Shown piece after piece: positions 2 to 18,390 of a stretch of 20,808 nucleotides of DNA. The translations under genes were made by a program, and so were the position numbers. The notes beneath the pieces are model-generated. The model was not told the DNA's origin. It was given only the letters and a program-made list of their open reading frames with translations, and did no database searches. Position 1 is the stretch's first letter. Each line of letters opens with the position of its first letter. Origin of the DNA: Candidatus Campbellbacteria bacterium RIFCSPLOWO2_02_35_12 (GTDB lineage: Bacteria > Patescibacteriota > Minisyncoccia > Phycocordibacterales > UBA2163); assembly GCA_001774455.1 (NCBI GenBank), contig MFAC01000014.1:1-20808 (forward strand), read 5' to 3'.

Positions 2-604
2 TATTTTGAAAATGAAAAAATTAAAATTGCCCAAGCGGAAAGCTCTTTTGCCCAAAAAGCGAGAAATGAGCTTGTAGAAATAGAAACAAAACTTGATCGT
101 TTGCTTGATTTGCAACTGGACGGCAATTTGTCGCAAGCGGAATATACCGCCAAAAAGTACAAGCTCATTCTCGCTAAAAAAGATTTGGAAGAAAAAATCC
201 ATGCTTTTGGGCGAAAGAGCAATAATCGGTTCGAACTTGCCATTGCCTTTCTAAAGGACGCCAACCAAGCCGAAAAATACGCTCAACAAGAAAATCCCGA
301 AAGGATTCGGGATTTTCTCAAAAAGATTGGTTCGAACTTCCGCATTGCCGACCGCTCTTTGGTTTTGGATTTCAAAAATGCCTTTCAAATTGCGGAAAAA
401 TACCATGCCGAGGCGCTTTGCGCCGAGGCTTCCAACCTTGATTTTTCGAAATGTGATTCTTGGCGGAGAGTGAGGGATTCGAACCCTCGAGGGGCTATAA
501 ACCCCTACCTCGTTAGCAGTGAGGCGCTTTCGTCCACTCAGCCAACTCTCCAATATACTTCGTATTGTCGCCGCTTATTTCATACACGCGATTTTTTACT
601 TTAA
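2..604 (+). CDS. Serine site-specific recombinase, C-terminal part (5' end outside window)
   Basis: The frame is open from base 2 and enters from upstream, so only the C-terminal part is seen. Visible residues form a charged, helical stretch with the pattern LDRLLDLQLDGNLSQAEY, then a KKDLEEK segment and a segment ending ERIRDFLKKIGSNF. That is the usual tail of large serine recombinases (the coiled coil after the zinc-ribbon domain), which cut and rejoin DNA at att sites. The catalytic domain is not in view. The frame has no stop before the tRNA-Ser gene: it reads across the antisense of that tRNA from codon TGG at 461 and stops at 604, so the last 48 or so residues are probably not conserved protein. 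Sampled lines here are 42-45% GC against about 27% in a sampled line of rnc, which fits recent acquisition. Family assignment rests on pattern memory, not on a search. Confidence 0.72.
   Translation, partial: YFENEKIKIAQAESSFAQKARNELVEIETKLDRLLDLQLDGNLSQAEYTAKKYKLILAKKDLEEKIHAFGRKSNNRFELAIAFLKDANQAEKYAQQENPERIRDFLKKIGSNFRIADRSLVLDFKNAFQIAEKYHAEALCAEASNLDFSKCDSWRRVRDSNPRGAINPYLVSSEALSSTQPTLQYTSYCRRLFHTRDFLL
461..551 (-). tRNA. tRNA-Ser (anticodon GCU)
   Basis: Read on the minus strand, the 91-base gene starts GGAGAGT and ends ACTCTCC-G-CCA, giving a 7-bp acceptor stem with an encoded CCA tail. The anticodon loop reads CTGCTAA, hence GCU for AGC/AGU codons. A long variable arm with a GGGG/CCCC stem marks a class II tRNA, and the T arm carries GGTTCGAATCC. 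The 3' end of the tRNA abuts the recombinase gene, the standard arrangement for elements that integrate into tRNA 3' ends. Confidence 0.96.
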
Positions 605-674
605 CCGATTATATAATACCATTTTTTATTTTTTTTCATCTATTTTTTACTTACGGCATATTGGTTTGTAAATA

Positions 675-783
675 TCTTGAATTACGAAATACAAAAATTT
701 AAGTCCTTGAGTCACAAAATTTCTTTATCTTCTAAATATTTTTACTCAAATAGACCGTAAATTTTTGCATTTCGTAATTCATA
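675..783 (+). mobile_element. MITE-like palindromic element, copy 1
   Basis: The core from GAATTAC (679) to GTAATTC (780) is 102 bp and its ends are inverted repeats of each other over about 24 bp with one mismatch. A perfect 7-bp direct repeat, GTAAATA, flanks it at 668-674 and 784-790, as expected for a target-site duplication. The inner arms can also pair here: TTGAGT on the left with ACTCAA on the right. The element lies between tRNA-Ser and the 3' end of comF, both minus-strand. Apart from it, 605-828 shows no gene. Confidence 0.85.
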
Positions 784-828
784 GTAAATAGACAGGACGC
801 TTAAATAAAATAAATATTTTTTGATTTT

Positions 829-1485
829 TTAATGCGCTATTGCAACACTAATTATATTTTTTGCTCCCGCGGCAAGCAGGACTTTTCGCGCTTCTTTTAA
901 TGTCGCGCCTGTTGTTATAACATCGTCAAGCAGAATTATATCGCGATTTTTTATTTCATCCGGCTTGTTAACATAAAAAACCCCCTTAATATTTTTAAGT
1001 CGTTTTGACCTGACAAGCGTTGTCTGGCTCGAAGTATTTTTTATTTTTTTAAGTAAATCTGTTTTTAAAATACATAAAGATTCTCCCGCAATATCGCAAA
1101 GTTCTTTTGCTAAAATTTCAGTCTGATTAAATCTTCTTTCCTGAAGATGTTTTTTGTGCATCGGAAGCGGTATGAGAAGCGGTTTATTAAAATCCGAATA
1201 TACATTTAAATCCGATAATTCTTCTTGCAGGAAGTCATATAAGATTTGCGCGAATAATTTCGCGACTTTTTTATTTTTTTTATATTTAAGCGACCATATC
1301 ATATTTTTTATGACTTCATCTCTATAATCAAAAAGAGTATATATAAATTCATCTTCCGTTTTATTGTTAAGAGATAATTTTTTTGACAAAATATCAATAG
1401 ATATATTTTCCGCTTTTTTATCAAATTCGTCTTTTGGAAAAAAAAATTTTAATACCGTTTCTATAATTTTGTTGAATTTAAACAT
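829..1485 (-). CDS. comF: ComF-like phosphoribosyltransferase (competence-associated)
   Basis: A 218-residue protein with the PRPP-binding signature LLDDVITTGATLKEARKVL near its C-terminus and the ComF-type segment PLPMHKKHLQERRFNQTEILAKEL before it. ComF proteins act with DNA uptake in competent bacteria; their exact reaction is not settled. The ATG at 1485 is chosen because the frame upstream of it runs into repeat copy 2, which would add about 49 unrelated residues. The N-terminal four-cysteine zinc ribbon of many ComF proteins is missing: the only cysteines are in the middle (ELCDIAGESLCIL). It lies divergent to the pilus cluster, which fits a role in uptake through type IV pili. A TAATAT lies 7 bases before the ATG and could be a -10 for a leaderless mRNA, without a clear -35. 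Confidence 0.85.
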   Translation of the reverse strand: MFKFNKIIETVLKFFFPKDEFDKKAENISIDILSKKLSLNNKTEDEFIYTLFDYRDEVIKNMIWSLKYKKNKKVAKLFAQILYDFLQEELSDLNVYSDFNKPLLIPLPMHKKHLQERRFNQTEILAKELCDIAGESLCILKTDLLKKIKNTSSQTTLVRSKRLKNIKGVFYVNKPDEIKNRDIILLDDVITTGATLKEARKVLLAAGAKNIISVAIAH

Positions 1486-1591
1486 AGCGTTTATATTATA
1501 ATTAAGTATAATATTATTATACGATAAGTTATAAATTGCCACGCGACTCTGAACATAATATTTTATATTTAACGGATAAATATTATAAATA

Positions 1592-1701
1592 CTATGAATT
1601 ACGAAATACAAAAATTTAGATCTCCGGGTCATAAAACCCCTTTATTTTCTAAATGTTTTTGCTCAAATAGACCATAAATTTTTGTATTTCGTAATTCAAA
1701 A
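1592..1701 (+). mobile_element. MITE-like palindromic element, copy 2
   Basis: The 102-bp core (1596-1697) has perfect 24-bp terminal inverted repeats counting the adjacent T and A. Flanking 7-mers ATAAATA (1585-1591) and ATAAACA (1702-1708) differ at one base and look like a target-site duplication. It sits between the divergent comF and pilM genes, and its right end is 10 bases from the pilM ATG, so it occupies whatever control region these genes share. Confidence 0.85.
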
Positions 1702-1707
1702 ATAAAC

Positions 1708-2847
1708 ATGTCTTTATTTGATTTTTTTAAAAAAAAAGAAATAAGCGTTGTCGGTATTGATATCGGCGCGTCCTCAATAAAAGTGGTACAGCTTAAAAAA
1801 CACAAAGGTGTTGCCGTACTTGAAACATACGGAGAGCTCTCTCTCGGTCCGTACTTCGGCGCGGAAATAGGGCAGGCTACAAATCTTCCAGCTTCAAAGA
1901 TAGCCGAAGCTCTGAATGATTTGCTGATTGAGGCAAATGTTACGGCTAAAAAAGCCGGCGTATCAATTCCTTTTTCGTCAAGTTTGATATCGCTTATTTT
2001 AATGCCGCCGCTTAATCCGAAAAATCTTTCTTCAATGATACCGATTGAAGCAAGAAAATATATTCCGGTGCCAATATCCGAAGTAACATTGGACTGGTTT
2101 GTTATTCCCGACGAAGATTTTTCTTTTAAAGGAGATTACGATTCTGACGGACAAATTAGCAAAGACAGCGTTAAGAAAAAAGAAGACGACAAAAAAATGA
2201 AAGTGCTTCTTGTCGCTATTCATAATGATATTTTAAATAAATATAATGAAATAATAAACGGCACCGACCTTGCCATTGGTTTTTTTGAAATAGAGATTTT
2301 CAGCGCGATAAGAGCCGTTGTGGAACAAAGTATAACCCCGACTATGGTGATTGATATGGGCGCCAGAGATACAAAGCTGTATATAGTTGAATTTGGAATA
2401 ATCAAATCTTCGCATGTAATAAACAGCGGAGCGCAGAATATTACTCAAACACTTTCAAAATCTTTAAGCATAACTATACCAAAAGCCGAAGAATTTAAAA
2501 GAAAAGCGGGTGTTATTGAAAGTTTCGGAGATAATAAAATTATAGATTCCAGAGATGTTATCATACCGGCGCTTGAGCGTATTTTTACCGAAGCAAACAG
2601 AGTTATGACGCAATATCAGCAGAAAAATAATAAAAATATCGGCAATGTGATACTTACCGGAGGCGGAGCAATAATGAAAGGAATACTTTCTGTTGCGGAA
2701 AAGTATTTTGAAACAAATATAATGCTAAGTAATCCATTTTCAAAAACAAAATCACCAGCGTTTCTTGAAGAAATTTTGAAAGAAGTTGGGCCCGGATTTG
2801 CCGTTGCCGTCGGTCTTGCTCTGCGAAGACTTCAGGAGATTGACTGA
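1708..2847 (+). CDS. pilM: PilM, actin-like type IV pilus assembly ATPase
   Basis: A 379-residue FtsA/actin-fold protein. The N-terminal phosphate loop is GIDIGASSIKVVQLKK (about residues 17-32), the second phosphate loop is VIDMGARDTKLYIVE near 215, and the adenosine motif is VILTGGGAIMKGI near 315. PilM is the cytoplasmic member of the PilMNO(P) alignment complex and binds the N-terminal tail of PilN. The first residues, MSLFDFFKKKE, form the typical short amphipathic start. It opens the pilus cluster. The ATG follows the end of repeat copy 2 by 10 bases, with no Shine-Dalgarno sequence. It ends in TGA, which shows that TGA is a stop in this organism. Confidence 0.93.
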   Translation: MSLFDFFKKKEISVVGIDIGASSIKVVQLKKHKGVAVLETYGELSLGPYFGAEIGQATNLPASKIAEALNDLLIEANVTAKKAGVSIPFSSSLISLILMPPLNPKNLSSMIPIEARKYIPVPISEVTLDWFVIPDEDFSFKGDYDSDGQISKDSVKKKEDDKKMKVLLVAIHNDILNKYNEIINGTDLAIGFFEIEIFSAIRAVVEQSITPTMVIDMGARDTKLYIVEFGIIKSSHVINSGAQNITQTLSKSLSITIPKAEEFKRKAGVIESFGDNKIIDSRDVIIPALERIFTEANRVMTQYQQKNNKNIGNVILTGGGAIMKGILSVAEKYFETNIMLSNPFSKTKSPAFLEEILKEVGPGFAVAVGLALRRLQEID

Positions 2848-2893
2848 CATCAATACAAATAAATGAATTAATAGTAAATATATTTATAATTAT

Positions 2894-3002
2894 TCTTGAA
2901 TTACGAAACGCAAAAATTTAGGTCCTCGGGTCGCAAAATCTCTTTGTCTTCTAAATGTTTTTGCTCAACCAGACCATAAATTTTTGCGTTTCGTAATTCA
3001 CA
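2894..3002 (+). mobile_element. MITE-like palindromic element, copy 3
   Basis: The 102-bp core is 2898-2999. Its terminal inverted repeat is perfect although it differs from the other copies: ACGC at 2908-2911 is matched by GCGT at 2986-2989, where most copies have ATAC and GTAT. This is a compensatory pair of changes. Flanking 7-mers TAATTAT (2887-2893) and GAATTAT (3003-3009) match at 6 of 7. It separates pilM from the pilN-like gene. A TATAAT at 3060-3065 downstream has no convincing -35. Confidence 0.85.
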
Positions 3003-3116
3003 GAATTATGTTATTAACATTAAAGATAATATAAACTCTCTATGCGCGTAAAAGTGATGTATAATAATATAGACTACCTATCTTGTGGTGGCAAATAGTG
3101 ATAAAGATAAAAAATT

Positions 3117-3713
3117 ATGGATATAAAATCGCATACATCGTTTATACCGAAAAAAGCATTTAATGCCGCAAACACCGCTTTGCATTCAAAAGGAAACAGT
3201 ATAGGCATTTTGTTTCTGCTGACGCTTATTATTTTTATCAGCGCTCTTGTTTTCTCGCTTGGCGTGTTTTTATATCAGCAATTTTTAATTAAAGACATAG
3301 AAAATAAAAGCTCTCAATTAAAAAGAGCCCGCGCGGAATTTGAGCCAACTCTTATTCAGGAAATAAATCGTCTTGAAAAACGGATACAATCTTCGCGAAA
3401 TATATTAAGAAAACACAAAACAACATCATCATTTTTTAATTTACTTGAAGATTTGACACTTGTAAATATTCAGTTTAAAAATCTTGAATATAATGTAGAT
3501 GAAAACGGCAGAGCGAACATCTCAATGAAAGGAAAAGCAAAAAGTTTTAATTCCGTCGCGCTTCAGTCTGACATATTTGGTAAGAGCGGGTCTATACAAG
3601 AGCCAATTTTTTCTAATCTTAATATTGATAATAAAGGTGATGTAGAATTTGATTTTATGGCTTTTATAGATTCAAATTTGATTTTATATGAAAATACAAT
3701 ATTGACGAAATAG
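3117..3713 (+). CDS. pilN: PilN-like inner-membrane pilus assembly protein
   Basis: The 198-residue product has a cytoplasmic N-terminus of about 30 residues, one strong transmembrane helix (IGILFLLTLIIFISALVFSL, about residues 29-48), then a coiled-coil segment (KDIENKSSQLKRARAEFEPT and onwards) and a small alpha/beta region. This is the layout of PilN, which links cytoplasmic PilM to PilO. The short sequence FIPKK near the N-terminus may be the PilM-binding peptide. Sequence identity to characterised PilN proteins is low, so the call rests on topology and on the position between pilM and the PilO-like gene. Confidence 0.7.
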   Translation: MDIKSHTSFIPKKAFNAANTALHSKGNSIGILFLLTLIIFISALVFSLGVFLYQQFLIKDIENKSSQLKRARAEFEPTLIQEINRLEKRIQSSRNILRKHKTTSSFFNLLEDLTLVNIQFKNLEYNVDENGRANISMKGKAKSFNSVALQSDIFGKSGSIQEPIFSNLNIDNKGDVEFDFMAFIDSNLILYENTILTK

Positions 3714-3741
3714 ATTGAATAATAATTAATTTATATTAAAT

Positions 3742-4293
3742 ATGATTAGATTAACACTTCCAATTATTTTTACACTTATCTCAATAGGACTTTTTTTCTT
3801 GTATATTGACCCTGTTTATAGCGATATTCGGCTTAAGATTAGCGAGAGAAATGAATCTGACAACGCGCTTGACAAGTCAAAAGAATTAAGAGAGGTTAGA
3901 GATAAATTACTTTCCGTCTACAATACATTTTCTACGAACGATATTGACCGTTTAGAAAAATTATTACCGGATAATGTTGATAATGTGCGACTTATTCTTG
4001 ACATTGATTACATAGCGTCAACTTACGGTATGCGTATAAAAAATGTAACTATCAATAAAAAAGACAATAGAGAGGTTGGAGTTATAGGTCCGAGCAATAA
4101 GCTGTTTGAATCGGTTAAACTTTCATTTTCCGTAATTTCCCCGTATGACAATTTTATACAATTTATCAAAAATATAGAAAAGAGCTTAAGGGTTGTTGAT
4201 ATTACAGAGGTATCTCTTGTCCAGCAGGGAGATGAAATTAATAATTTGATATATGAATACAGAATAGGACTTGAGACTTACTGGTTGAAGTAA
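3742..4293 (+). CDS. pilO: PilO-like inner-membrane pilus assembly protein
   Basis: A 183-residue protein with an immediate transmembrane helix (LPIIFTLISIGLFFLYI), a charged coiled-coil stretch to about residue 75, the segment KLLPDNVDNVRLILDIDYIA, and a C-terminal ferredoxin-like domain. The pattern LLPDNVDNVRLILDI... followed by SPYDNFIQFIKNIEKSLRVVDI is typical of PilO, which dimerises with PilN in the periplasmic-side alignment complex. It follows the pilN-like gene by 28 bases and is probably cotranscribed with it. Confidence 0.78.
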   Translation: MIRLTLPIIFTLISIGLFFLYIDPVYSDIRLKISERNESDNALDKSKELREVRDKLLSVYNTFSTNDIDRLEKLLPDNVDNVRLILDIDYIASTYGMRIKNVTINKKDNREVGVIGPSNKLFESVKLSFSVISPYDNFIQFIKNIEKSLRVVDITEVSLVQQGDEINNLIYEYRIGLETYWLK

Positions 4294-4331
4294 AAATGAA
4301 ACGCAAAGTAAAAAAATAAAATAAAACAGAT

Positions 4332-4700
4332 ATGAAAATTCTAAAAAAATATAAAAATAAAATTCTTATTGTGGTAATTATAATTGTTGCGGCTATCGGT
4401 TATAATATTTTATTTGGCGGAGAGGAGAATAATCTTCTTATGTCAGAAAGCGTAAATGCCGTAGGTAAAACGGAGGATGATGAACTAATATCTTTACTCA
4501 TAAATTTACGTTTAATTAATCTTGATGGAAGTATTTTTTCAGACCCTGTTTTTAGAAGTTTAGAAGATTTTGGTCAGAAATTAGCGCCGGAATCTGTGGG
4601 AAGAAACAATCCTTTTGCGCCGATAGGAGTTGACGCAAACCGCGACACATTAAGCGATAGCACGGATGAACAGACAATAGGCGCTGGACAAATGCAATAA
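4332..4700 (+). CDS. Small membrane-anchored pilus cluster protein, possibly PilP-like
   Basis: A 122-residue protein with an N-terminal membrane anchor (ILIVVIIIVAAIGYNILFGG) and a short outer part. It contains SIFSDPVFRSLEDFGQ and the motif RNNPFAPIG near residue 95. The RNPFAP-type motif recalls the RDPF segment of PilP lipoproteins, but there is no lipobox cysteine and the PilP beta-sandwich is absent. Its place directly after the PilO-like gene suggests that it replaces PilP at the inner membrane. The function is inferred from position and this one motif. Confidence 0.6.
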   Translation: MKILKKYKNKILIVVIIIVAAIGYNILFGGEENNLLMSESVNAVGKTEDDELISLLINLRLINLDGSIFSDPVFRSLEDFGQKLAPESVGRNNPFAPIGVDANRDTLSDSTDEQTIGAGQMQ

Positions 4701-4739
4701 TTTATATTTACGCGGGATTTATAAATTACGCCTATATGA

Positions 4740-4849
4740 TTATGAATTACGAAATACAAAAATTTAGGTTCTCTGGTTGCAAAACCTCTTTATCTTCTAA
4801 ATATTTTTACAAAACCAGACCATAAATTTTTGTATTTCGTAATTCAAAG
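4740..4849 (+). mobile_element. MITE-like palindromic element, copy 4
   Basis: The core 4744-4845 has perfect 24-bp terminal inverted repeats. A perfect 7-bp direct repeat, TATATGA, flanks it at 4733-4739 and 4850-4856. The right-hand copy of this repeat contains the pilB start codon, so the insertion took place exactly at the start of pilB and displaced its original upstream sequence by about 117 bases. The inner arm sequences CTGGTT and AACCAG can pair. Confidence 0.87.
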
Positions 4850-4852
4850 TAT

Positions 4853-6607
4853 ATGAATTTACTTTCTATTTTAGAAAAAAAAAATATTATAGATGAAAAA
4901 GATATTGCGTTAATAAAAAAAGAAGCCGAAATATCGGGTAATTCTTTTGAAAAAATACTCATTAAAACAGGTATTAAGCAGGATATTATATTAAAAGCGA
5001 AAGGAGAGTATTATAATATACCGATATGGGAGCTTAAAAATAAAAGCGTGCCGTTTGAGGTGTTTAAGTATATTCCGGAAGAGTCGGCATTGCATTATAA
5101 ATTCGTTCCGCTTGGAGTCAGCGACAATATTTTGGAAGTCGGCATCCTTGACCCCGATAATTTAGACGCGCTGGACGCTCTTAATTTTATTTCTTCAAAC
5201 GCGGATACGCCATTTAAGATTTATCTTATTTCAGAGAATGATTTTGATGAGATTTATAAGATGTATAAAGGTTTTTCCGGAGAAGTCAATAGAGCGATAT
5301 CGGAACTTGATACTGAATTGGTGAAAGACAAAAAAATAAAAGCGTTGGGAGAAGATAAAAAAGTTTCCAATACCGATATAATAAAAGAAGACGCTCCCGT
5401 TACAAAAATTGTCGCGAATATAATTCATTACGCGGTTGAAGAACGCGCGTCGGATATTCACATAGAACATATGAGCAACTCTATAAGGGTAAGATTTCGT
5501 GTAGACGGGACATTAAGCACGAGTTTGATGTTGCCGTTAAAAACGCATCAAGCTGTTGTGGCGCGCTTGAAAGTCCTTTCGTCAATGAAACTTGATGAAA
5601 AGAGAAGACCTCAGGATGGGAGATTTTCAGCAAAAATAAATAATAGGAAAGTTGATTTTCGTGTTTCAACATTCCCTTCATATTACGGAGAGAAAGTGGT
5701 AATAAGAATATTAGACACGGATAAAGGCGTGCGAAAGATTGATGAGTTTGGACTTAGCGAAAGAAATTTAAGACTTATTAAGAATGCCATAAAACAGCCA
5801 TACGGTCTTATACTTATATCAGGTCCTACCGGTTCCGGCAAATCAACAACACTTTATTCAATGCTTAATGAAACAGACCATGAGTCAAAAAATGTTTTGT
5901 CGCTTGAAGACCCAATTGAATATAACATTGACGGAATAAGCCAGTCGCAAGTGAGACCTGAAATAGGATATACATTTGCAAACGGCCTTAGAACAACACT
6001 TCGGCAGGACCCGGATATTATAATGGTTGGAGAGATAAGAGATAAAGAAACGGCCGGGCTTGCCGTACAGGCGGCTTTGACGGGACATCTTGTATTGTCA
6101 ACAATTCACACCAATAATGCAATCGGCGTTATCCCGAGACTTTTAGAGATGGAGGTAGACCCGTTTTTAATTGCCCCGACACTTATCATAGCAGTCGCTC
6201 AACGACTTGTGAGAACATTATGCCCAGCCACAGGTAAGCCGATAGAAATAGAAGAAAGTATGAGAAAAATGATTGAGAGTCAATTTTCGGATTTACCGGA
6301 GAAATATAGAAAAACTCTGCCAATAGGTAAAAATTTTTTTGACCCCGAACCGAATGAAGGATGTCCAACAGGAATGAGAGGACGGATGGCTGTATTTGAA
6401 ATAATTGAGATGAATAAAGAAATTGAAGAAATAATTCTCAAAAATCCTTCAGATTTGGAAATTCAAAAAATCGCGCGCAAAAACGGAATGCTGACAATGA
6501 AAGAAGACGCTATATTGAAAGCGTTTGATAAGAAAATTCCGTTTAGCGAGATTAATACGCTCGGAGGAGAATTTCTTTTTGAAGAAAATAATTTAGAAAA
6601 ATTTTAG
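4853..6607 (+). CDS. pilB: PilB/GspE-family pilus extension ATPase
   Basis: A 584-residue hexameric motor ATPase that drives pilus assembly. The N-terminal MshEN-type domain (about 1-150) carries the PIWELKNKSVPFEVFKYIPEE segment. The catalytic core has Walker A GPTGSGKST at 324-332, the Asp box LSLEDPIEYNI, Walker B DPDIIMVGEIRD and the His box GHLVLSTIHTNNA. The C-terminal zinc-binding four-cysteine motif usual in PilB is degenerate: only LCPATGK and EGCPTGM remain, one cysteine in each half. The start codon lies within the right target duplication of copy 4, and there is no Shine-Dalgarno sequence. Confidence 0.95.
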   Translation: MNLLSILEKKNIIDEKDIALIKKEAEISGNSFEKILIKTGIKQDIILKAKGEYYNIPIWELKNKSVPFEVFKYIPEESALHYKFVPLGVSDNILEVGILDPDNLDALDALNFISSNADTPFKIYLISENDFDEIYKMYKGFSGEVNRAISELDTELVKDKKIKALGEDKKVSNTDIIKEDAPVTKIVANIIHYAVEERASDIHIEHMSNSIRVRFRVDGTLSTSLMLPLKTHQAVVARLKVLSSMKLDEKRRPQDGRFSAKINNRKVDFRVSTFPSYYGEKVVIRILDTDKGVRKIDEFGLSERNLRLIKNAIKQPYGLILISGPTGSGKSTTLYSMLNETDHESKNVLSLEDPIEYNIDGISQSQVRPEIGYTFANGLRTTLRQDPDIIMVGEIRDKETAGLAVQAALTGHLVLSTIHTNNAIGVIPRLLEMEVDPFLIAPTLIIAVAQRLVRTLCPATGKPIEIEESMRKMIESQFSDLPEKYRKTLPIGKNFFDPEPNEGCPTGMRGRMAVFEIIEMNKEIEEIILKNPSDLEIQKIARKNGMLTMKEDAILKAFDKKIPFSEINTLGGEFLFEENNLEKF

Positions 6608-6678
6608 ATAATATAATACATTGATACTTATAACGGTATGTTTTATACTACTTATAATATATAAATAAACATAAAAAT

Positions 6679-7065
6679 ATGGATAAAAAAAATAAAATAT
6701 TTCTTATAGATGACGATAGTTTTATGACCGATATGTACGCGATTAAGTTTAAAGAACACGGTTTTGATGTGAGTACAAGCTTGGATTCAAAAGAGGCCTT
6801 AGATAGATTGAGAGAGGGCTTTTCTCCTGATATTATATTATTTGATATTATAATGCCAAAACTTAGCGGAATTGAATTTTTAGAAATTGTCAGGAAAGAA
6901 AAACTCGCGAATAATGCAGTATTCATCGCTTTATCTAACCAATGGAAAGAAGAAGAGGTTGATAAAGTGAAATCTTTGGGTATTGCGGATTATATAATAA
7001 AAGCGGAATCCATACCATCGGAGGTTTTAGACAAAGTGGAAAAAATCATTGAAAAACACGGTTAA
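6679..7065 (+). CDS. Stand-alone response-regulator receiver domain (CheY-like)
   Basis: A 128-residue single receiver domain with no output domain. The acidic pocket is D11-D12-D13, the phospho-acceptor is Asp56 in LFDIIMP, the conserved Ser/Thr is Ser86 (IALSNQ) and the conserved lysine is Lys108 (YIIKAES). All residues needed for phosphorylation are present. It sits 71 bases after pilB and 27 before pilT, so it probably modulates extension or retraction, as CheY-like proteins do in twitching systems. No histidine kinase is visible in the window. Confidence 0.9.
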   Translation: MDKKNKIFLIDDDSFMTDMYAIKFKEHGFDVSTSLDSKEALDRLREGFSPDIILFDIIMPKLSGIEFLEIVRKEKLANNAVFIALSNQWKEEEVDKVKSLGIADYIIKAESIPSEVLDKVEKIIEKHG

Positions 7066-7092
7066 GGATATAATAATTTTCAATATAATTAT

Positions 7093-8166
7093 ATGGAAAA
7101 TATAACAGATTATAAAAAAGAATTAAAAGCGTTAATTGACCTTGTTATTAATGAGTCAGCGTCAGACCTTCATTTATCATCGGACAATTATCCCACAATA
7201 AGAGTAAACAGCGTTCTTATTCCACTTTTAAAAAGACGAAGATTATCGGGAGAAGACACATTAGGTTTTATCTCGGAACTTTTAACGCAAGAGCAAAAAC
7301 AAAATTTTTTATTAAATAAAGAAATTGATTTTTCGTATAAATATGATGAAAACACTCGTTTCAGAGGAAACGGTTTTTTTCAGCAAGGAGAAATAGGAAT
7401 ATCACTCAGACTTATTCCAAAACAAATTAAAACCCTGGAAGAGCTTAATCTGCCTCCGATTCTTGAGATTTTCGCGCAAAAAAAACAGGGTTTTTTTCTT
7501 GTTGTCGGCCCTGTTGGACAAGGTAAGACAACGACGCTTGCTTCAATGATTGAAATTATAAATAAAAGCAGGGCGGAACATATAATCACGATTGAAGACC
7601 CCATAGAATATGTTTTTGAGCAGAAAAAATCTATGATTGACCAGCGCGAAGTAAGGATTGACACCAAAGATTTTGCCACGGCCTTGATGTCCGTATTCAG
7701 ACAGGATGTTGATGTGTTGATGATAGGAGAGATGCGTGGCGTTGAGACAATATCAACCGCGGTAACCGCCGCGGAAACCGGACATTTGGTATTATCAACA
7801 CTTCATACCAATAATGCCGCTCAGACAATAGACAGAATTATAGATTCATTTCCGGAGGTCGGACAAGAACAAATTCGCATTCAGCTTGCCGCGTCTTTGG
7901 CGGGAATATTTTCTCAGCGATTGGTGCCGAGAATTTCAGGCGGATTAATTCCGGTTTATGAACTTCTTATCAATAATAATGCCGTTGCAAATCTTATTCG
8001 CGAAAAGAGAACGCAGGAATTAAATATGGTTATTGAAACAAATATGGAAGAAGGAATGATTGACTTAAATAGGTCTCTTGCCGATTTTGTGAGGCGCGGA
8101 GAAATCACAATAGAAGATGCGAGAGCCCATTCACTTAATCCAAAGGTGCTGGAACAGATTGTATAA
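7093..8166 (+). CDS. pilT: PilT-family pilus retraction ATPase
   Basis: A 357-residue protein of normal PilT length. It begins with the PilT-type segment LIDLVINESASDLHLSSDNYPTIRV, which distinguishes it from PilB. Walker A is GPVGQGKT at 139-146, the Asp box is ITIEDPIEY, Walker B is DVDVLMIGEMR and the His box is GHLVLSTLHTNNA. The motor depolymerises pilin at the base of the pilus and so powers twitching and DNA uptake. The gene lies between the receiver gene and pilC with gaps of 27 and 28 bases, consistent with one operon. Confidence 0.95.
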   Translation: MENITDYKKELKALIDLVINESASDLHLSSDNYPTIRVNSVLIPLLKRRRLSGEDTLGFISELLTQEQKQNFLLNKEIDFSYKYDENTRFRGNGFFQQGEIGISLRLIPKQIKTLEELNLPPILEIFAQKKQGFFLVVGPVGQGKTTTLASMIEIINKSRAEHIITIEDPIEYVFEQKKSMIDQREVRIDTKDFATALMSVFRQDVDVLMIGEMRGVETISTAVTAAETGHLVLSTLHTNNAAQTIDRIIDSFPEVGQEQIRIQLAASLAGIFSQRLVPRISGGLIPVYELLINNNAVANLIREKRTQELNMVIETNMEEGMIDLNRSLADFVRRGEITIEDARAHSLNPKVLEQIV

Positions 8167-8194
8167 ATCACAAATCACAAATTAAAATATATAT

Positions 8195-9400
8195 ATGTTA
8201 TTCAAATACACAGCTATAGACAAAACAGGAAATGAGACAGCGGGAAGTATTGACACGATTAATAAAGATGTGGCAATCAGCTCGCTCCAAAGACAAGGTC
8301 TTGTCATATCGTCTATAATTTCTGCTGAAGAAAAATCTTTTTTTAAGAGAGAAATATCTTTTTTTGACAGAGTTTCCAATAAAGAGATAGTTATGCTTTC
8401 ACGGCAAATATCAACACTTTTTGAATCGCAAGTATCCGCTTTACGCGTATTTAAACTGCTTGGCTCCGAATCTTCAAACAAGATATTAAGAGCGGCTCTT
8501 ATAGATGTGGCAGATGACATACAATCGGGAAAATCAATATCAGACGCGCTCTCGGAACATAATAAAATATTCTCTCCTTTTTATGTAAATATGGTGCGCG
8601 CGGGGGAAGAGTCGGGGAAACTTGACCAGATATTTTCATATTTGGCGGATTATTTGGATAGGTCGTATGAAATAACATCAAAAACGAAAAATGCTTTAAT
8701 CTATCCGGCTTTCGTAACATTTACTTTTATTACAGTTATGATTCTTATGTTGACATTGGTTATTCCAAAAATAAGCGACATTTTTGTTGAATCAGGTCAA
8801 GAATTGCCAATATATACAAAAATAGTGGTGGGCGTAAGCGATTTTTTTGTGAATTACGGAATTTTTCTTTTAATATTAGTAATTATAGGAGGATTTTTTT
8901 TGTGGAAATATAATAAAACAGAACAAGGCAAATCGTCTATTTCACAATTTAGACTTTCTATTCCATATTTGGGAAATTTATATAAAAAACTTTACTTATC
9001 TAGAATTTCCGATAATTTAAGCACAATGCTTTCAAGTGGTATAACAATGACGCGCGCAATTGAAATAACAGCTACTGTTATCGGCGATACGACATATGAA
9101 AAATTGCTTAATAAATCAGCGCAATCTATAAAATCCGGCAGTTCCTTATCGGAATCTTTTACCGGACATAAAGAAATACCAAGTATTTTGATACAAATGG
9201 TAAAAGTAGGAGAAGAGACGGGAGAACTTAGCAATATTTTAAACACATTGTCTAAATTTTATGCGAGAGAAATAAAAAATACGGTAGATACTCTTGTTAC
9301 TCTTATAGAACCGATAATGATTGTGGCTTTAGCGCTTGGTGTCGGAGTACTCTTAGCGGCGGTTCTTATGCCTATATATAATATATCTTCCGCCATATAA
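8195..9400 (+). CDS. pilC: PilC/GspF-family inner-membrane platform protein
   Basis: A 401-residue polytopic protein with two T2SSF repeats. The first (about residues 65-190) contains VSALRVFKLLG and VRAGEESGKLDQIFSYLADYLD; the second (about 270-395) contains ITMTRAIEIT and VKVGEETGELSNILNTLSKF. Hydrophobic helices lie near 167-190, 220-238 and at the C-terminus (EPIMIVALALGVGVLLAAVL). PilC is the membrane platform turned by PilB and PilT. The short leader has two AAATCAC units and no Shine-Dalgarno sequence. Confidence 0.94.
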   Translation: MLFKYTAIDKTGNETAGSIDTINKDVAISSLQRQGLVISSIISAEEKSFFKREISFFDRVSNKEIVMLSRQISTLFESQVSALRVFKLLGSESSNKILRAALIDVADDIQSGKSISDALSEHNKIFSPFYVNMVRAGEESGKLDQIFSYLADYLDRSYEITSKTKNALIYPAFVTFTFITVMILMLTLVIPKISDIFVESGQELPIYTKIVVGVSDFFVNYGIFLLILVIIGGFFLWKYNKTEQGKSSISQFRLSIPYLGNLYKKLYLSRISDNLSTMLSSGITMTRAIEITATVIGDTTYEKLLNKSAQSIKSGSSLSESFTGHKEIPSILIQMVKVGEETGELSNILNTLSKFYAREIKNTVDTLVTLIEPIMIVALALGVGVLLAAVLMPIYNISSAI

Positions 9401-9430
9401 CCTTGCATTATCAATATTTTGGTACTTGAG

Positions 9431-9439
9431 TTATCCACA
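9431..9439 (+). promoter_or_regulatory. Exact DnaA-box match (TTATCCACA)
   Basis: A perfect match to the DnaA consensus box upstream of the pilin promoter. A second exact match is at 18617-18625. One isolated box does not make an origin and may be chance, or may serve DnaA-linked regulation. Confidence 0.35.
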
Positions 9440-9448
9440 CAGTGTTTT

Positions 9449-9476
9449 TTGAAATAGCTATAAATAGTTATATAAT
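9449..9476 (+). promoter_or_regulatory. Probable promoter of the pilin gene
   Basis: TTGAAA (9449-9454) and TATAAT (9471-9476) are separated by 16 bases. Transcription from here would give a leader of about 75 bases before the ATG at 9560. The leader contains an AT-rich hairpin formed by GCTTTTTAAT and ATTAAAAGC at about 9494-9516, unlike the leaderless-looking promoters elsewhere in the window. Confidence 0.5.
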
Positions 9477-9559
9477 TTTTATGTTGCAAAAAAGCTTTTT
9501 AATTTAATATTAAAAGCGGTCGTTTAAATAATTTATTAATTAAAATAGTTAATTTGATT

Positions 9560-9988
9560 ATGAAAAAGGCAAGAAATAAAGGTTTTACGCTTATTGAGCT
9601 TTTGGTTGTTATCGCGATTATCGGAATTTTATCGTCCGTTGTTTTGGCGAGCTTAAATACTGCTCGTCAAAAATCGCGAGACGCAAAAAGAATCGCGGAT
9701 ATGAAACAGCTTCAAATAGCTCTTGAGTTTAGTTTTGATAAAAATAGTCAATATCCGACTCAAGTTATAGCGGCAAACATATCAACAGCTTTGGCATCGC
9801 TTGTAACCGATAACTTTATACCGGCGCTTCCCTCCGACCCGCAAAGCACGAATAACCAATACTTCTACATATCGGCAACAGGAGCGTCTTACTGTGTAGG
9901 AGCTAATCTTGAAGGTAGTACAAATCAGTTAGATACATGTGGTACGGATGATTTAGCCGCCGCTTATGATCATGAAGTCGGTCCATAA
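9560..9988 (+). CDS. Type IV pilin (prepilin)
   Basis: A 142-residue prepilin with a class III signal: short basic leader MKKARNKG, cleavage expected between G and F, then FTLIELLVVIAIIGILSSVV with the conserved Glu at mature position 5. The head domain holds two cysteines (SYCVG and DTCGT) about 24 residues apart, which could form the D-region disulphide. The ATG at 9560 is chosen over a TTG two codons upstream because it gives the standard leader. It follows the assembly genes, has its own probable promoter and is followed by a strong terminator, so it is likely the abundant pilus subunit. No prepilin peptidase gene is in the window. Confidence 0.93.
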   Translation: MKKARNKGFTLIELLVVIAIIGILSSVVLASLNTARQKSRDAKRIADMKQLQIALEFSFDKNSQYPTQVIAANISTALASLVTDNFIPALPSDPQSTNNQYFYISATGASYCVGANLEGSTNQLDTCGTDDLAAAYDHEVGP

Positions 9989-10021
9989 TGATTTTTTGAG
10001 TTGTTATTGTAATTATATTTT

Positions 10022-10154
10022 GAATTACAAAATAGCTTTATGCTGAAATCGCAAAAAACCGCCGATAAAGCGGTTTTTTGCTGAAATATTACAGAACCCC
10101 AAATTACAAAATTAGATGACGAACATTTTATAACGAGGAAGAGTTTCGTAATTC
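10022..10154 (+). repeat. Possible decayed or rearranged palindromic element
   Basis: The ends GAATTACAAAATA (10022) and TTTCGTAATTC (10144-10154) resemble the two ends of the MITE-like family, but the interior differs and contains the pilin terminator. A second left-end-like AAATTACAAAATTA lies at 10101. No 7-bp flanking duplication is visible. Confidence 0.4.
10051..10081 (+). terminator. Intrinsic terminator after the pilin gene
   Basis: GCAAAAAACCGC (10051-10062) pairs perfectly with GCGGTTTTTTGC (10070-10081) across a 7-base loop. The T run is part of the stem, so the structure can act in both directions. It separates the pilin from rnhB and is the only clear terminator in the window. 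Confidence 0.8.
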
Positions 10155-10179
10155 ACGATAATGCAATCCGTTAATATAA

Positions 10180-10836
10180 ATGAATTATAAATATGTAATC
10201 GGCATAGATGAAGCAGGACGCGGGCCTCTTGCGGGACCTGTTGCAATTGGCGCGGTCTTGTTTTCAAAAAATGAATACAAAAAGTTTAAGCTCCGTTTGA
10301 ACGGAAAATTCAAATTAGAATCGAATATTTTGAAAGATTCAAAAAAACTTTCTGAAAATAAAAGAGAAAAATGGTTTAAATTTATGGAAGATAAACAAAA
10401 TCTTGCGCAAAAATCATTCTTGGGCGGGACAGAAAAAGACTTCAGATTTTTAGTAGTATTTTCAAGCGCGAAAATAATAGACAATAAAGGAATTAATCAC
10501 GCGATAAATATCGCCATTAAAAAGATACTTTTAAAATTTTCCGTAAATAAAGATAAATGTCTGATACTTTTAGACGGAGCTCTTAAAGCTCCGAGCATAT
10601 TTTTGAATCAAAAAACAATAATAAAAGGGGACGAAAAAGAACCGATAATATCTCTCGCTTCAATTGCCGCAAAAGTGAAAAGAGATAGAAAAATGACAAG
10701 TTTATCCAAAAAATATTTTGAATATAATTTTGAAAAGCATAAAGGTTATGGCGTAAAAGCTCATTATAGAATAATAAAAAAATACGGAATATGCGCCATT
10801 CATCGTAAAAGTTTTTTGAAAAAAATTTTTAATTAA
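10180..10836 (+). CDS. rnhB: Ribonuclease HII
   Basis: A 218-residue RNase HII, which removes ribonucleotides and RNA primers from RNA-DNA hybrids. The active-site DE pair is in GIDEAGRGPLAGPVAIGAV (Asp10, Glu11). DSKKLSENKREKWF follows, then LILLDGAL with the third carboxylate, and SLASIAAKVKRDRKM with the fourth region. Between the GPVAIGAV strand and DSKKLSE there is a lysine-rich insertion of about 20 residues. It has neither a Shine-Dalgarno sequence nor a clear promoter close to the ATG. Confidence 0.95.
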   Translation: MNYKYVIGIDEAGRGPLAGPVAIGAVLFSKNEYKKFKLRLNGKFKLESNILKDSKKLSENKREKWFKFMEDKQNLAQKSFLGGTEKDFRFLVVFSSAKIIDNKGINHAINIAIKKILLKFSVNKDKCLILLDGALKAPSIFLNQKTIIKGDEKEPIISLASIAAKVKRDRKMTSLSKKYFEYNFEKHKGYGVKAHYRIIKKYGICAIHRKSFLKKIFN

Positions 10837-10865
10837 TCTTGAATTCTCAAAAAATGATTTAAATA

Positions 10866-10974
10866 TTATAAATTACAAAATACAAAAATTTAGGTCCTTG
10901 AATCGCAAAACCTATTTATTTTCTAAATATTTTTGCAAAACCAGACCGTAAATTTTTGTATTTCGTAATTCAAG
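10866..10974 (+). mobile_element. MITE-like palindromic element, copy 5
   Basis: The core 10870-10971 has a left end with two G-to-A changes (AAATTACAAAATAC) and an intact right end. Flanking 7-mers TTAAATA (10859-10865) and ATAAATA (10975-10981) match at 6 of 7. It lies between rnhB and rpmF. Confidence 0.82.
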
Positions 10975-11057
10975 ATAAATAAGAAAATTAAAGACATTAA
11001 AGCCAAATTTCAAATCCTAAAATTGTTCAAGCCACTGAACATAATTGACAGATAAGT

Positions 11058-11086
11058 TTGCCAAAATTCGTCTATTTTGATATAGT
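11058..11086 (+). promoter_or_regulatory. Promoter of rpmF, probably giving a leaderless mRNA
   Basis: TTGCCA (11058-11063) and TATAGT (11081-11086) are 17 bases apart, and the rpmF ATG begins 7 bases after the -10. Transcription is therefore expected to start at or within a base or two of the A of the ATG. Confidence 0.6.
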
Positions 11087-11093
11087 TATATTT

Positions 11094-11390
11094 ATGACAG
11101 TAAGGATGAGACATACAAGAAGCCATACCGCAAACAGGCGGTCGCATCATAGTCTTAAAGAACCGAGGATTTCTTTATGCATGGATTGTAAAGCTCCGCA
11201 CAAACGACACAATGTATGTCTTTCTTGCGGCAGATATAAAGGTAGAGTGGTTATAGATATGGCAGTAAAACTTGAGAAAAAACAAGCGAAAGCAAAAGCG
11301 AAAAAAGAAGCAATGAGCGAAGAAGCCACAAGCGACGCAGAACAGACAGAAGATAAAATACTTAATGCCGAGGAATTATCTAAGAAATAA
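11094..11390 (+). CDS. rpmF: Large-subunit ribosomal protein bL32 with C-terminal tail
   Basis: A 98-residue protein. The basic N-terminus TVRMRHTRSHTANRRSHHSL and the zinc-ribbon cysteines CMDC and CLSCGRYKGR identify bL32. It is longer than the usual 55-65 residues because of a lysine/alanine- and glutamate-rich tail (KKQAKAKAKKEAMSEEATSD and onwards) that is predicted to be helical or disordered. The ATG at 11094 is preferred over a TTG at 11058 because the extra residues are unlike bL32 and would overlap the promoter. Confidence 0.92.
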   Translation: MTVRMRHTRSHTANRRSHHSLKEPRISLCMDCKAPHKRHNVCLSCGRYKGRVVIDMAVKLEKKQAKAKAKKEAMSEEATSDAEQTEDKILNAEELSKK

Positions 11391-11422
11391 AAGATTTAAA
11401 ATACTGAGGATAAATTTGTAAT

Positions 11423-11450
11423 TTGTAATTTGTAATTTATTACCTATATA
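11423..11450 (+). promoter_or_regulatory. Possible promoter of nusB, with 7-bp tandem repeat
   Basis: TTGTAA (11423-11428) and TATATA (11445-11450) are 16 bases apart, and the ATG follows by 6 bases, again implying a leaderless transcript. The -35 is one of three tandem TTTGTAA units at 11415-11435, so several alternative -35 boxes exist. Confidence 0.45.
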
Positions 11451-11456
11451 GTTTTT

Positions 11457-12398
11457 ATGGCAAATAGGCATCTTTCAAGGTCAATAGTATTACAAACATT
11501 GTTTGAGTTGGATTTTAACGGTTTTATTGGTAAAAACCCGCTTGGCAGTAAAACAGAAAGAAAAACCGAAGATACTAAAATAATTCTTGCGCGTAATGCC
11601 GAAGAATTTGCTCCCGGGATGGAAGATTTTTTATTTGCGAGAGAACTCTTAGACAATATTTTAGAAAAGAGAGAAAGCATAGATACAATTATAGAGAAGG
11701 CGGCTCCTGAATGGTCAATTGATAAAATTTCCATTGTTGACAGAAATATATTAAGAGTCGGTCTATATGAGCTTTTATTTTCAGATAGAAAAGAAGTGCC
11801 GGCAAAAGTTGCCATTAATGAAGCAATTGAGCTTGCCAAAACATTTGGCGGGGAGTCCAGCGGAAGATTTATAAACGGAGTATTAGGAGCGGTATATAAA
11901 GAAATGGGAGAACCGGGCAAAGAAGAAGTTTCAAAGAAAAAAAATAAAAAAAAGATAAAAGATATTCCGTATGAAAAAATGTCGATAAAAAAACTCGGTG
12001 GAGCTGTTATATACGCAAACAATAATAACAATATTTATCTCGCATTAGTTCATGATGTTTTTGGACACTGGACTCTTTCAAAAGGAGGAATAGATGAAAA
12101 AGAGAATAAAGAAGACGGCACAGTTAGAAAAATAAAAGAAGAACTTGGCATTGAAGTAAAAATTAAAGATAAACTTGGAGAAAATGAATATATCGCTTCA
12201 GACCCGGAAATAGGAAAGTTGAGAAAACAAGTGGTGTATTTTTTGGCAGAATCAAAATTTGATGATTTAAAACTTGCGGATAAAGATGGATTAAACGACG
12301 CTAAGTGGTTTAAACTTTCAGATATTGTTGAACTTAATTTCTATGACGATATACTTCCAATCGTCACAAAAGCTGTAAATATATTATTAAAAAAATAA
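11457..12398 (+). CDS. nusB: NusB - NUDIX hydrolase fusion protein
   Basis: A 313-residue protein. Residues 1 to about 150 form a NusB domain ([70 protein letters not shown]), the RNA-binding antitermination factor that works with NusE/S10. A lysine-rich linker ([10 protein letters not shown]) leads to a NUDIX fold from about 175 to the end. The Nudix box is G-x5-E-x7-R-K-I-x-EE-x-G-I around [12 protein letters not shown]; the REUxEE motif has Lys in place of its first Glu, but the EE pair needed for metal binding is kept. NUDIX domains hydrolyse nucleoside diphosphates linked to another group; the substrate here cannot be told. No stop or frameshift separates the two halves. Confidence 0.9.
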
Positions 12399-12426
12399 AG
12401 AATTATTTTTTAGAAGTATAAGTTAA

Positions 12427-12536
12427 CTATGAATTACGAAATACAAAAATTTAGGTCCTCGGGTCGCAAAATCTCTTTATCTTCTAAAATATTTTTGCTC
12501 AACCAGACCATAAATTTTTGTTTTTCGTAATTCAAG
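12427..12536 (+). mobile_element. MITE-like palindromic element, copy 6
   Basis: The core 12431-12533 is 103 bp, with one extra A in the loop region and one mismatch in the terminal repeat. The flanks are ambiguous: AAGTTAA (12420-12426) and AAGGTAA (12534-12540) match at 6 of 7, but at a different offset from the other copies. The element ends 16 bases before the rnc ATG. Confidence 0.8.
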
Positions 12537-12549
12537 GTAATAAAAAATT

Positions 12550-13239
12550 ATGAATTTTGGACAATTTGAAAAAAAATTAAATATTGTATTTAAAAATAAA
12601 AACCTTTTGAAACAATCTTTCACTCACAGGTCATATTTGAATGAAAATAAAAGTTTTAGAATGGCTCACAATGAAAGACTTGAATTTTTGGGTGACGCCG
12701 TGCTGGAGCTTGTCGTTACAGAGTATTTATATGGAAAATATCCTGAAAAAACAGAAGGAGATTTAACCTCATATAGAGCGGCGCTTGTAAATACTATTAC
12801 ACTTTCATCCGTGGCCAGTACGCTTTGTATGAATGATTTTTTATTGCTTTCAAAAGGCGAGGCGAAAGATATAGGACGCGCTAGGCAGTATATACTCGCG
12901 AATACTTTTGAATCATTTGTGGGTGCGCTTTATTTAGACCAAGGATATAATGCCGCGAAAAATTTTATCGCAAAAAATTTATTTCCGCTTACAGATGAAA
13001 TAGTGGAAAAAGGTCTCTGGCAGGATAGTAAAAGTCGTTTTCAAGAAGTCGCGCAAGAGAAAGTAAGTATTACCCCGCAATATAAAACAATGCAAGAAAT
13101 CGGTCCCGACCATGAAAAAAATTTTATTGTTGGCGTGTATCTCGGTGAAGACTTTGTAGAGAAAGGAGAAGGCAAATCAAAACAAGAAGCGGAACAGGAC
13201 GCCGCGCAAAAAGCGCTTTTGATAAAAGAGTGGGATTAA
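12550..13239 (+). CDS. rnc: Ribonuclease III
   Basis: A 229-residue double-strand RNA endonuclease that matures rRNA and other structured RNAs. The signature HNERLEFLGDAVLELVV carries Glu42, Glu45 and Asp49. The second metal-site segment is LANTFESFVGALYLDQG with Asn118 where E. coli has Asp114, while Glu121 is kept. The C-terminal double-stranded-RNA-binding domain (about 155-229) ends with EGKSKQEAEQDAAQKALL. Length is normal. The ATG at 12550 gives a standard RNase III N-terminus. Confidence 0.95.
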   Translation: MNFGQFEKKLNIVFKNKNLLKQSFTHRSYLNENKSFRMAHNERLEFLGDAVLELVVTEYLYGKYPEKTEGDLTSYRAALVNTITLSSVASTLCMNDFLLLSKGEAKDIGRARQYILANTFESFVGALYLDQGYNAAKNFIAKNLFPLTDEIVEKGLWQDSKSRFQEVAQEKVSITPQYKTMQEIGPDHEKNFIVGVYLGEDFVEKGEGKSKQEAEQDAAQKALLIKEWD

Positions 13240-13284
13240 TAACACAAAAAATCATAAGTATTTAAAAATTTAAAGATATGCACA

Positions 13285-13393
13285 CTATGAATTACGAAAT
13301 ACAAAAATTTAGGTCCTCAGGTCGTAAAACCTCTTTGTCTTCTAAATGTTTTTGCTCAAATAGACCGTAAATTTTTGTATTTCGTAATTCAAG
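13285..13393 (+). mobile_element. MITE-like palindromic element, copy 7
   Basis: The core 13289-13390 has perfect 24-bp terminal inverted repeats. A perfect 7-bp direct repeat, ATGCACA, flanks it at 13278-13284 and 13394-13400. It lies between rnc and smc. A solo right-end-like sequence (TTTTGTAATTCA, about 13502-13513) sits further downstream. Confidence 0.87.
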
Positions 13394-13524
13394 ATGCACA
13401 GGTCTGACTTGTACATATCGATGTTTTGTATGATTTTTAAATTTTTCAACAAAGCGCAGCAATAATAGTTAAATTTGATTGAAAAAACTTAGTTAAAAGA
13501 GTTTTGTAATTCAAAGTAAAATTG

Positions 13525-13530
13525 TATAAT
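13525..13530 (+). promoter_or_regulatory. Probable -10 element of smc
   Basis: A consensus TATAAT ends 6 bases before the smc ATG, which would give a leaderless mRNA. The -35 is weak (TTTTGT at 13502-13507 with a 17-base spacer) and overlaps the solo repeat end. Confidence 0.45.
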
Positions 13531-13536
13531 AATTAA

Positions 13537-15801: not shown

Positions 15802-16183
15802 TCGTTCAATCGCTTAGGTTCAATCTTGATAAAAAATTAACAGCGAGGTTAAACTTTGATGTTAATATGGCCATCAGCTTAATAATTTTTAATTCACAAT
15901 TTACAATTAATTTTTCAACTTATACAAAACAGCAATCCATCAAGGACCATCTTTGATGTTTCTTGCTATTCTGTGAAATATTTTATACTAAAAAAGAGCC
16001 TATAATTAATTCAAAGTATATATTATAAATAAGACAAAATAATATTAAAAATGTAAAACTTTGGCAAAATTGGTCAATTTGGATATTTAGAAAAGTAACA
16101 AATCTTAAGTAATATTAAAATACGAGCATATTTTTTAATCTCGCGCATAAAACATTTATACATTGATAATGATTGTGCAAAAA
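15802..16183 (+). other. 382-bp intergenic stretch without a recognised gene
   Basis: AT-rich spacer between the convergent smc and the small membrane protein gene. It contains AATTCACAATTTACAATT at about 15891, similar in style to short repeats near 8168 and 11415, and a weak hairpin (CATCAA with TTGATG, about 15937-15958) without a T tract. No strong terminator, RNA gene or coding signal was seen. Confidence 0.5.
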
Positions 16184-18121: not shown

Positions 18122-18263
18122 TGATATGTACAGTTAACCTTATGAGATGACATTCTGATAAGATTGAGGTAACAAAGGTTAATTATCAGAATTTATAAGG
18201 GCTAATCCCAAAAACACATTATGGCGAACAAAAATCAAGCACCTGGTATATCCGGTCAAAATC

Positions 18264-18390
18264 AAACCCGTCCAAGGACTGTCCTTGGACAGGAAGAACC
18301 CGTCCAAGGACTGTCCTTGGACAGGAAGTCCTTGGACAGGAAACCCGTCCAAGGACAGTCCTTGGACGGGTTTGTCCTTGGACGGGTTTT
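18264..18390 (+). repeat. Dense palindromic repeat cluster (GTCCTTGGAC family)
   Basis: The 10-mer GTCCTTGGAC or its complement occurs eight times in 114 bases (forward at 18281, 18313, 18328, 18358, 18374; reverse at 18270, 18302, 18347). The stretch 18341-18373 is a perfect 33-base palindrome with 16-bp arms about the base at 18357. The sequence is clearly GC-richer than its surroundings. It lies inside the IS remnant and is translated in no meaningful frame. Confidence 0.85.

Follow-up and report, generated by a model that had tools for sequence, protein, structure and literature searches.

Among the described miniature inverted-repeat transposable elements (MITEs), the closest precedent to the family reported here is MITECca01 of the Cardinium endosymbiont cOegib, which is described as derived from an IS982-type insertion sequence (IS), with ISCca4 as its parent, and as present in 169 mostly intergenic copies that account for 3.5% of the chromosome (PMC9769881). 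The MITEs of Porphyromonas gingivalis, e.g. BrickBuilt, are likewise short and have their ends in common with full IS, and one of them is nested in another, while the same account gives them a match to the IS5 family, variable-length duplications in three of four copies and, for all MITEs together, a share of 1% of the genome (PMC4596501). Neither IS982 nor Patescibacteria turned up in a term search of the main text of a review on MITEs (PMC10969869), and searches of the open-licence literature yielded no description of MITEs for Patescibacteria, Parcubacteria or the candidate phyla radiation; the matching passages of one article concern MITE-like repeats that belong to Thiohalocapsa (PMC10907252), and those of another laboratory methods (PMC10633639). 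Here we analyse a stretch of 20,808 nt (in the following, the window) of contig MFAC01000014.1 from Candidatus Campbellbacteria bacterium RIFCSPLOWO2_02_35_12, which holds seven copies of a short near-palindromic repeat. Judging from sequence comparison, these repeats are very probably (about 0.92) a MITE family that was moved in trans by a DDE transposase of the IS982 family.

The family shares with MITECca01 the IS982-like ends, the lack of a transposase, a very high copy number, a mostly intergenic position and a reduced host genome. It differs in length (110 bp vs ~240 bp), in its host group, and in that the Cardinium genome is listed as containing seven intact parent copies; moreover, the present element also occurs in another family of bacteria, has base-exact empty sites, and shares its end with several other interiors (compared with PMC9769881). 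The kind of element is thus already known, and what is unusual here is its density in a reduced genome and its occurrence across families.

The repeat unit comprises a near-palindromic core of 104 bp and three further bases on each side, i.e. 110 bp (111 bp in copy 6). When the copies are aligned together with their flanks, the core begins and ends with TGAATTACGAAAT...ATTTCGTAATTCA, followed on each side by three bases and then by the direct repeat; CTA...AGA is the commonest pair of spacers (22 of 49 copies), and TCT...CAG occurs in 6 of the 49. The original prediction had listed the same seven intergenic sites and terminal inverted repeats of about 24 bp, and both are borne out, the repeats being near-perfect over ~24 bp with an imperfect continuation to ~42 bp. 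Its boundaries need correction, since each core starts one base earlier than proposed (678, 1595, 2897, 4743, 10869, 12430 and 13288), with a length of 104 bp, and the unit measures 110 rather than 109 bp. In the assembly to which the window belongs (G000; 357,328 bases in 37 contigs, estimated to be 59% complete), a 24-base end pattern with three mismatches allowed matched 78 forward and 80 reverse ends, the reversed control pattern none. This gives about 80 copies, an estimate in which badly diverged ends are missed and fragments counted, and corresponds to about one copy per 4.5 kb and ~2.5% of the assembly. The unit is short and non-coding, with no room for a transposase. Mean identity among the copies is 90%, and three cores, window copy 3 among them, are identical at 104 of 104 positions.

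Target-site duplications are frequent. With the spacer fixed at three bases on each side, an exact direct repeat of 6 or 7 bp lies directly outside the unit in 41 of the 60 copies with complete flanks (7 bp in 20, 6 bp in 21; one further copy has 8 bp and 18 have none), and shuffling the right flanks between copies (10,000 rounds) gave a mean of 1.7 for this count and never more than 8. These 60 copies are part of the ~80 and derive from 69 rows, of which nine were left out (fragments of the interrupted copy, weak second-strand rows, copies cut by a contig end, and L018:1926 with its damaged left end). The targets are rich in A and T, which make up 132 of the 140 bases in the twenty exact 7-bp targets. 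Similarly, in G009, a genome of another family, 9 of 21 copies carry an exact 6- or 7-bp repeat against a shuffle mean of 0.5 and a maximum of 5, four of 25 rows having been left out as weak, partial or spurious. One copy is inserted within another (L015, G000:C21), with TCTTATA on both sides as a 7-bp duplication. The enrichment over shuffled flanks that the original prediction called for is therefore present genome-wide, and its duplications are real, with the amendment that their length is 6 or 7 bp and not always 7.

The duplications also bear on a different origin. Being short, palindromic, intergenic and numerous, the repeats resemble repetitive extragenic palindromic (REP)-like sequences, for which a Y1 (RAYT) transposase would be the agent of spread. 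Target duplications, found here in 41 of 60 copies, are not expected from Y1 enzymes, and the ends match those of IS982-type elements (see below); we give this origin practically no chance.

The copies in the window are as follows.

675..784, plus strand: MITE copy 1, 3 + 104 + 3 bp; flanked by GTAAATA at 668-674 and 784-790 (in the 3/3 register, TAAATA).
1592..1701, plus strand: MITE copy 2, between a comF-like phosphoribosyltransferase gene and pilM; target ATAAATA at 1585-1591 and ATAAACA at 1702-1708.
2894..3003, plus strand: MITE copy 3, between pilM and the following gene of the pilus operon; target AATTAT at 2888-2893 and 3004-3009.
4740..4849, plus strand: MITE copy 4, immediately 5' of a pilB-like ATPase gene; target TATATGA at 4733-4739 and 4850-4856.
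10866..10975, plus strand: MITE copy 5, between the genes for RNase HII and ribosomal protein L32; target TAAATA at 10860-10865 and 10976-10981.
12427..12537, plus strand: MITE copy 6, 111 bp, between a NusB-NUDIX gene and the RNase III gene, without a clear duplication.
13285..13394, plus strand: MITE copy 7, between the RNase III and SMC genes; repeat ATGCACA at 13278-13284 and 13394-13400.

Genes next to copies 2, 4 and 5 were assigned by Pfam (T2SSE for the ATPase at copy 4). The 7-bp repeats predicted at copies 1, 4 and 7 are exact, those at copies 1 and 7 with a right spacer of two bases, and copy 6 is as ambiguous as it had been judged to be. Because the target repeat at copy 4 (4733-4856 region) includes the ATG with which the pilB-like gene starts, the insertion duplicated this start region.

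A comparison within the genus reveals the state before insertion. Contig C46 of the same-genus genome G003 is syntenic with the window from about 533 to 15,804, its RNase III being 90% identical to that of the window, and the element is absent from it at all seven window sites. The empty site is base-exact for copies 2, 3 and 4: the BLASTN segments end precisely at 1591/1702, 2893/3004 and 4739/4850, and on the G003 side neighbouring segments share 7, 6 and 7 bp, which implies a single unduplicated target at each. Once the element and one repeat are removed, the flanks at these three copies have equal lengths in both genomes (64, 65 and 74 bases). Copies 1, 5, 6 and 7 are absent as well, at sites whose diverged flanks preclude an exact joint, and at the site of copy 6 a short surrounding stretch is also missing from G003. 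Taken together, the duplications, the nested copy and the empty sites indicate that the repeats in the window are MITEs that have moved. With flanking repeats enriched and empty alleles in a relative, the proposal of mobile non-autonomous elements instead of fixed palindromes is upheld.

The opposite view, of immobile intergenic palindromes with a regulatory role as terminators or RNA hairpins, can draw on several features of the copies. As RNA, copy 3 is predicted to form a hairpin over nearly its full length (-43.8 kcal/mol, z -10.5), and 63 of 64 copies in G000 overlap no predicted frame of at least 80 aa by at least 60 bases (the frame overlapped by the remaining copy is perhaps spurious, and a few others overlap by less than 60 bases). 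Furthermore, the fit between the two arms is better inside one copy than across copies in G000 (61 copies) and G009 (23), in a comparison that does not control for the relatedness of the copies; the advantage is clear for the inner arm only in G009, and is not clear in G003 (7 copies). In the covariation analysis the top mutual-information pair is an arm pair, and many other top pairs are not. We claim no selected RNA from these data, and a search of the window with Rfam at gathering thresholds returned one tRNA and nothing else. Exact empty sites, duplications, nesting and a patchy distribution all speak against fixed palindromes, whose account of the origin of the repeats is refuted by the empty sites; this view is accordingly very improbable. 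A later use of mobile copies as hairpins in transcripts is possible. Where a copy is flanked by two frames of at least 80 aa (smaller genes are not seen in these counts; n = 54), the frames run in the same direction in 36 cases, diverge in 13 and converge in 5. Window copies sit within a likely pilus operon (PilM, PilO and a T2SSE-type ATPase), and these would be transcribed.

Which enzyme moved the elements is suggested by their ends. A search of 397 genomes of the order for the exact 15-base end TGAATTACGAAATRC was positive in 24, and among the matches listed there is none for the reversed pattern; G003 is not one of the 24, its ends differing from TGAATTACGAAATRC by one base. Stretches around the end matches were screened for pairs of ends with flanking repeats. 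Genome G121 possesses a complete IS of ~1 kb (L086:407-1407), with 995 bp between the outer core ends, CCTTGAATTACGAAAT at both ends, and the flanking repeat GTATTTA, read with a right spacer of 2 (in the 3/3 register, TATTTA). In contrast to the gene-less elements of the window, it encodes a protein of 277 aa, a transposase just above the cut-off of the NCBIfam model IS982 (NF033520; 133.4 bits, cut-off 130), which also matches Pfam DDE_Tnp_1_3 (PF13612) with 107.3 bits (cut-off 27; 1e-30). IS982 is the sole NCBIfam model above cut-off for this protein, the only one covered by the family-model scan, and the IS5 and IS4 models stay below theirs. A second complete IS982-type element, in G133 (L124), has one mismatch in 15 at each end and the target TAAAACA. 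Members of the IS982 family are ~1 kb long, with inverted ends and a short duplication; both elements, at 1.00 and 1.01 kb, agree with this. The ends of the MITEs are thus held in common with autonomous elements of other genomes (L086 and L124) with zero or one mismatch in 15.

Further traces of such IS are more fragmentary. Of 30 genomes, most of them selected for the end, nine contain relatives of the G121 protein. G316 has an IS982-type copy at a contig end, with the match divided over two frames and ends with two and three mismatches, and G242 has four IS982-type pieces at contig ends with CCCC ends, as in a second group of copies in G009. A transposase relic in G003 is separated from an end by 125 bases, close to the 123 of G121. 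When the proteins from G121, G133, G242 and G338 are aligned, conservation is seen around DST/DPT, ADAGY and R..[VI]E, in blocks that presumably hold the DDE residues. On this basis, an IS982-family DDE transposase supplied in trans would recognise both ends (about CTN-TGAATTACGAAATRC, inverted), move the 110-bp unit and join it to a 6- or 7-bp staggered cut in AT-rich intergenic DNA, with gap filling giving rise to the direct repeats.

Several observations weigh against this reading. No IS982-type transposase was found in G000 (59% complete) or in the many-copy genome G009 (97% complete), and the PF13612 profile, run on 11 genomes, matched in G316 only, with nothing in these two. The G121 protein scores barely above the IS982 cut-off, and the relic in G003 is small, with 65 aligned residues and one stop. 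The ends of MITE and IS diverge beyond ~16-18 bp, which means that the MITE did not arise by simple internal deletion from one of the IS seen here. Finally, 18 of 60 copies in G000 have no exact repeat in the fixed register, and in G003, where three of ten rows were left out for a weak score or N, 3 of 7 copies have an exact repeat, a count reached in 59 of 10,000 shuffles. Among the end pairs listed that are more than 500 bp apart in L046-L121, only that of G121 has a flanking repeat, in a screen that did not take in the whole of G000. The full-length IS with the same ends anticipated by the original prediction thus exists in other genomes of the order, and was not found in G000 itself. The missing parent weakens the tie to IS982, not the mobility of the elements.

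The same gap leaves some room for a DDE transposase of another family with coincidentally similar ends, as do the sub-cut-off scores of the G121 protein for IS5 and IS4. Two complete IS982-type elements with zero or one mismatch in 15 and 6-7-bp duplications, together with IS982 as the sole NCBIfam model above cut-off, make such a coincidence unlikely. DDE_Tnp_1 (PF01609), tried as a candidate mover, is present in none of six genomes of the genus, G000 included, a search that did not extend to other families. The elements were most likely moved by an IS982-type transposase or a close relative, whose gene may now lie in the unassembled part of G000 or have been lost. The MITEs could also be relics that have lost their mobility in this lineage, a reading compatible with movement by an IS982-type enzyme. 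The lack of a transposase in the 59% assembly and the mean identity of 90% between copies fit such relics, and the three identical cores and the nested insertion suggest late activity instead; we rate it as a real though minor possibility. The family was once, and is perhaps still, mobile.

The end is more widespread than the interior. In G009 an element with a 135-bp core (L046:1729-1869) has the same ends around a palindromic interior of the GTCATTCCCGCG type and the repeat TTATAAT, and in G050 a 159-bp core with the same ends is flanked by TCTAATA; G009, G050, G082, G182 and further genomes have short elements that combine ends of this type and flanking repeats with other interiors. Among the end pairs listed that are less than 400 bp apart in L086-L121, 15 of 29 have an exact repeat of 6-8 bp, a count that accepted spacers of 2 to 4 and has no shuffle control. 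Four of these 15 (G225, G316) resemble the window element inside, and eleven look different by the bases listed. An alignment of 30 sequences in which some G316 copies are reversed did not enter the counts. The end, more than the interior, is the common part of these elements. In G009 (L050, L053, L065, L072 and L073) the same interior is combined with CCCC/GGGG-type ends, the type of the IS982-type pieces in G242, an apparent switch between CTN and CCCC ends around one interior. More speculatively, and on balance doubtful in its full extent, an IS982-type end of ~16 bp might serve as a passport shared across this order of Parcubacteria-type genomes, by which transposases with related ends move unrelated interiors, with end switching and transfer between families; hairpins would then form a main part of the intergenic space and its transcripts in one lineage, their arms perhaps being kept matched beyond what a transposase needs at the ends.

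The distribution of the element is patchy. Of 60 genomes searched as relatives, five have matches (G000, G003, G009 and, weakly, G050 and G051), and four members of the same genus (G001, G002, G004 and G005) have none. Window copy 3 and a copy of G009 (L061:1665) share 102 of 104 core bases (98%), while among pairings of the 61 G000 copies with the 7 of G003 the highest identity is 92.3%; the nearest-neighbour identity of the G000 copies averages 92.6% to G009 and 87.9% to G003. The RNase III of the window, by comparison, is 69% identical to that of G009 vs 90% to that of G003. Because the element is closer between families than within the genus, this points to horizontal passage between families, with a single gene (RNase III) as the yardstick. 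Viral contigs gave no match to a 26-base element pattern, and of the eight stretches in them that matched transposase peptide patterns none was confirmed as a relative, i.e. no viral vector was seen.

Some other features of the window were recorded. A single frame at 11457-12398 combines NusB (residues 7-148) with a NUDIX domain (192-294), and 13537-15801 encodes an SMC-like protein of 754 aa with an SMC_N match over residues 2 to 739, which is short for an SMC. The region 16366-17913 encodes an ABC1/UbiB-type atypical kinase domain (PF03109) in this reduced genome. At 18252-18389, before the phenylalanyl-tRNA synthetase gene, self-complementary units GTCCAAGGAC / GTCCTTGGAC form a direct and inverted array that is unrelated to the MITE.

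The family illustrates how heavily a small genome can be loaded with mobile DNA, here largely limited to the gaps between genes. The element can also serve to trace horizontal exchange among families of these bacteria, and it could explain conserved intergenic hairpins as well as some of the contig breaks in their assemblies.

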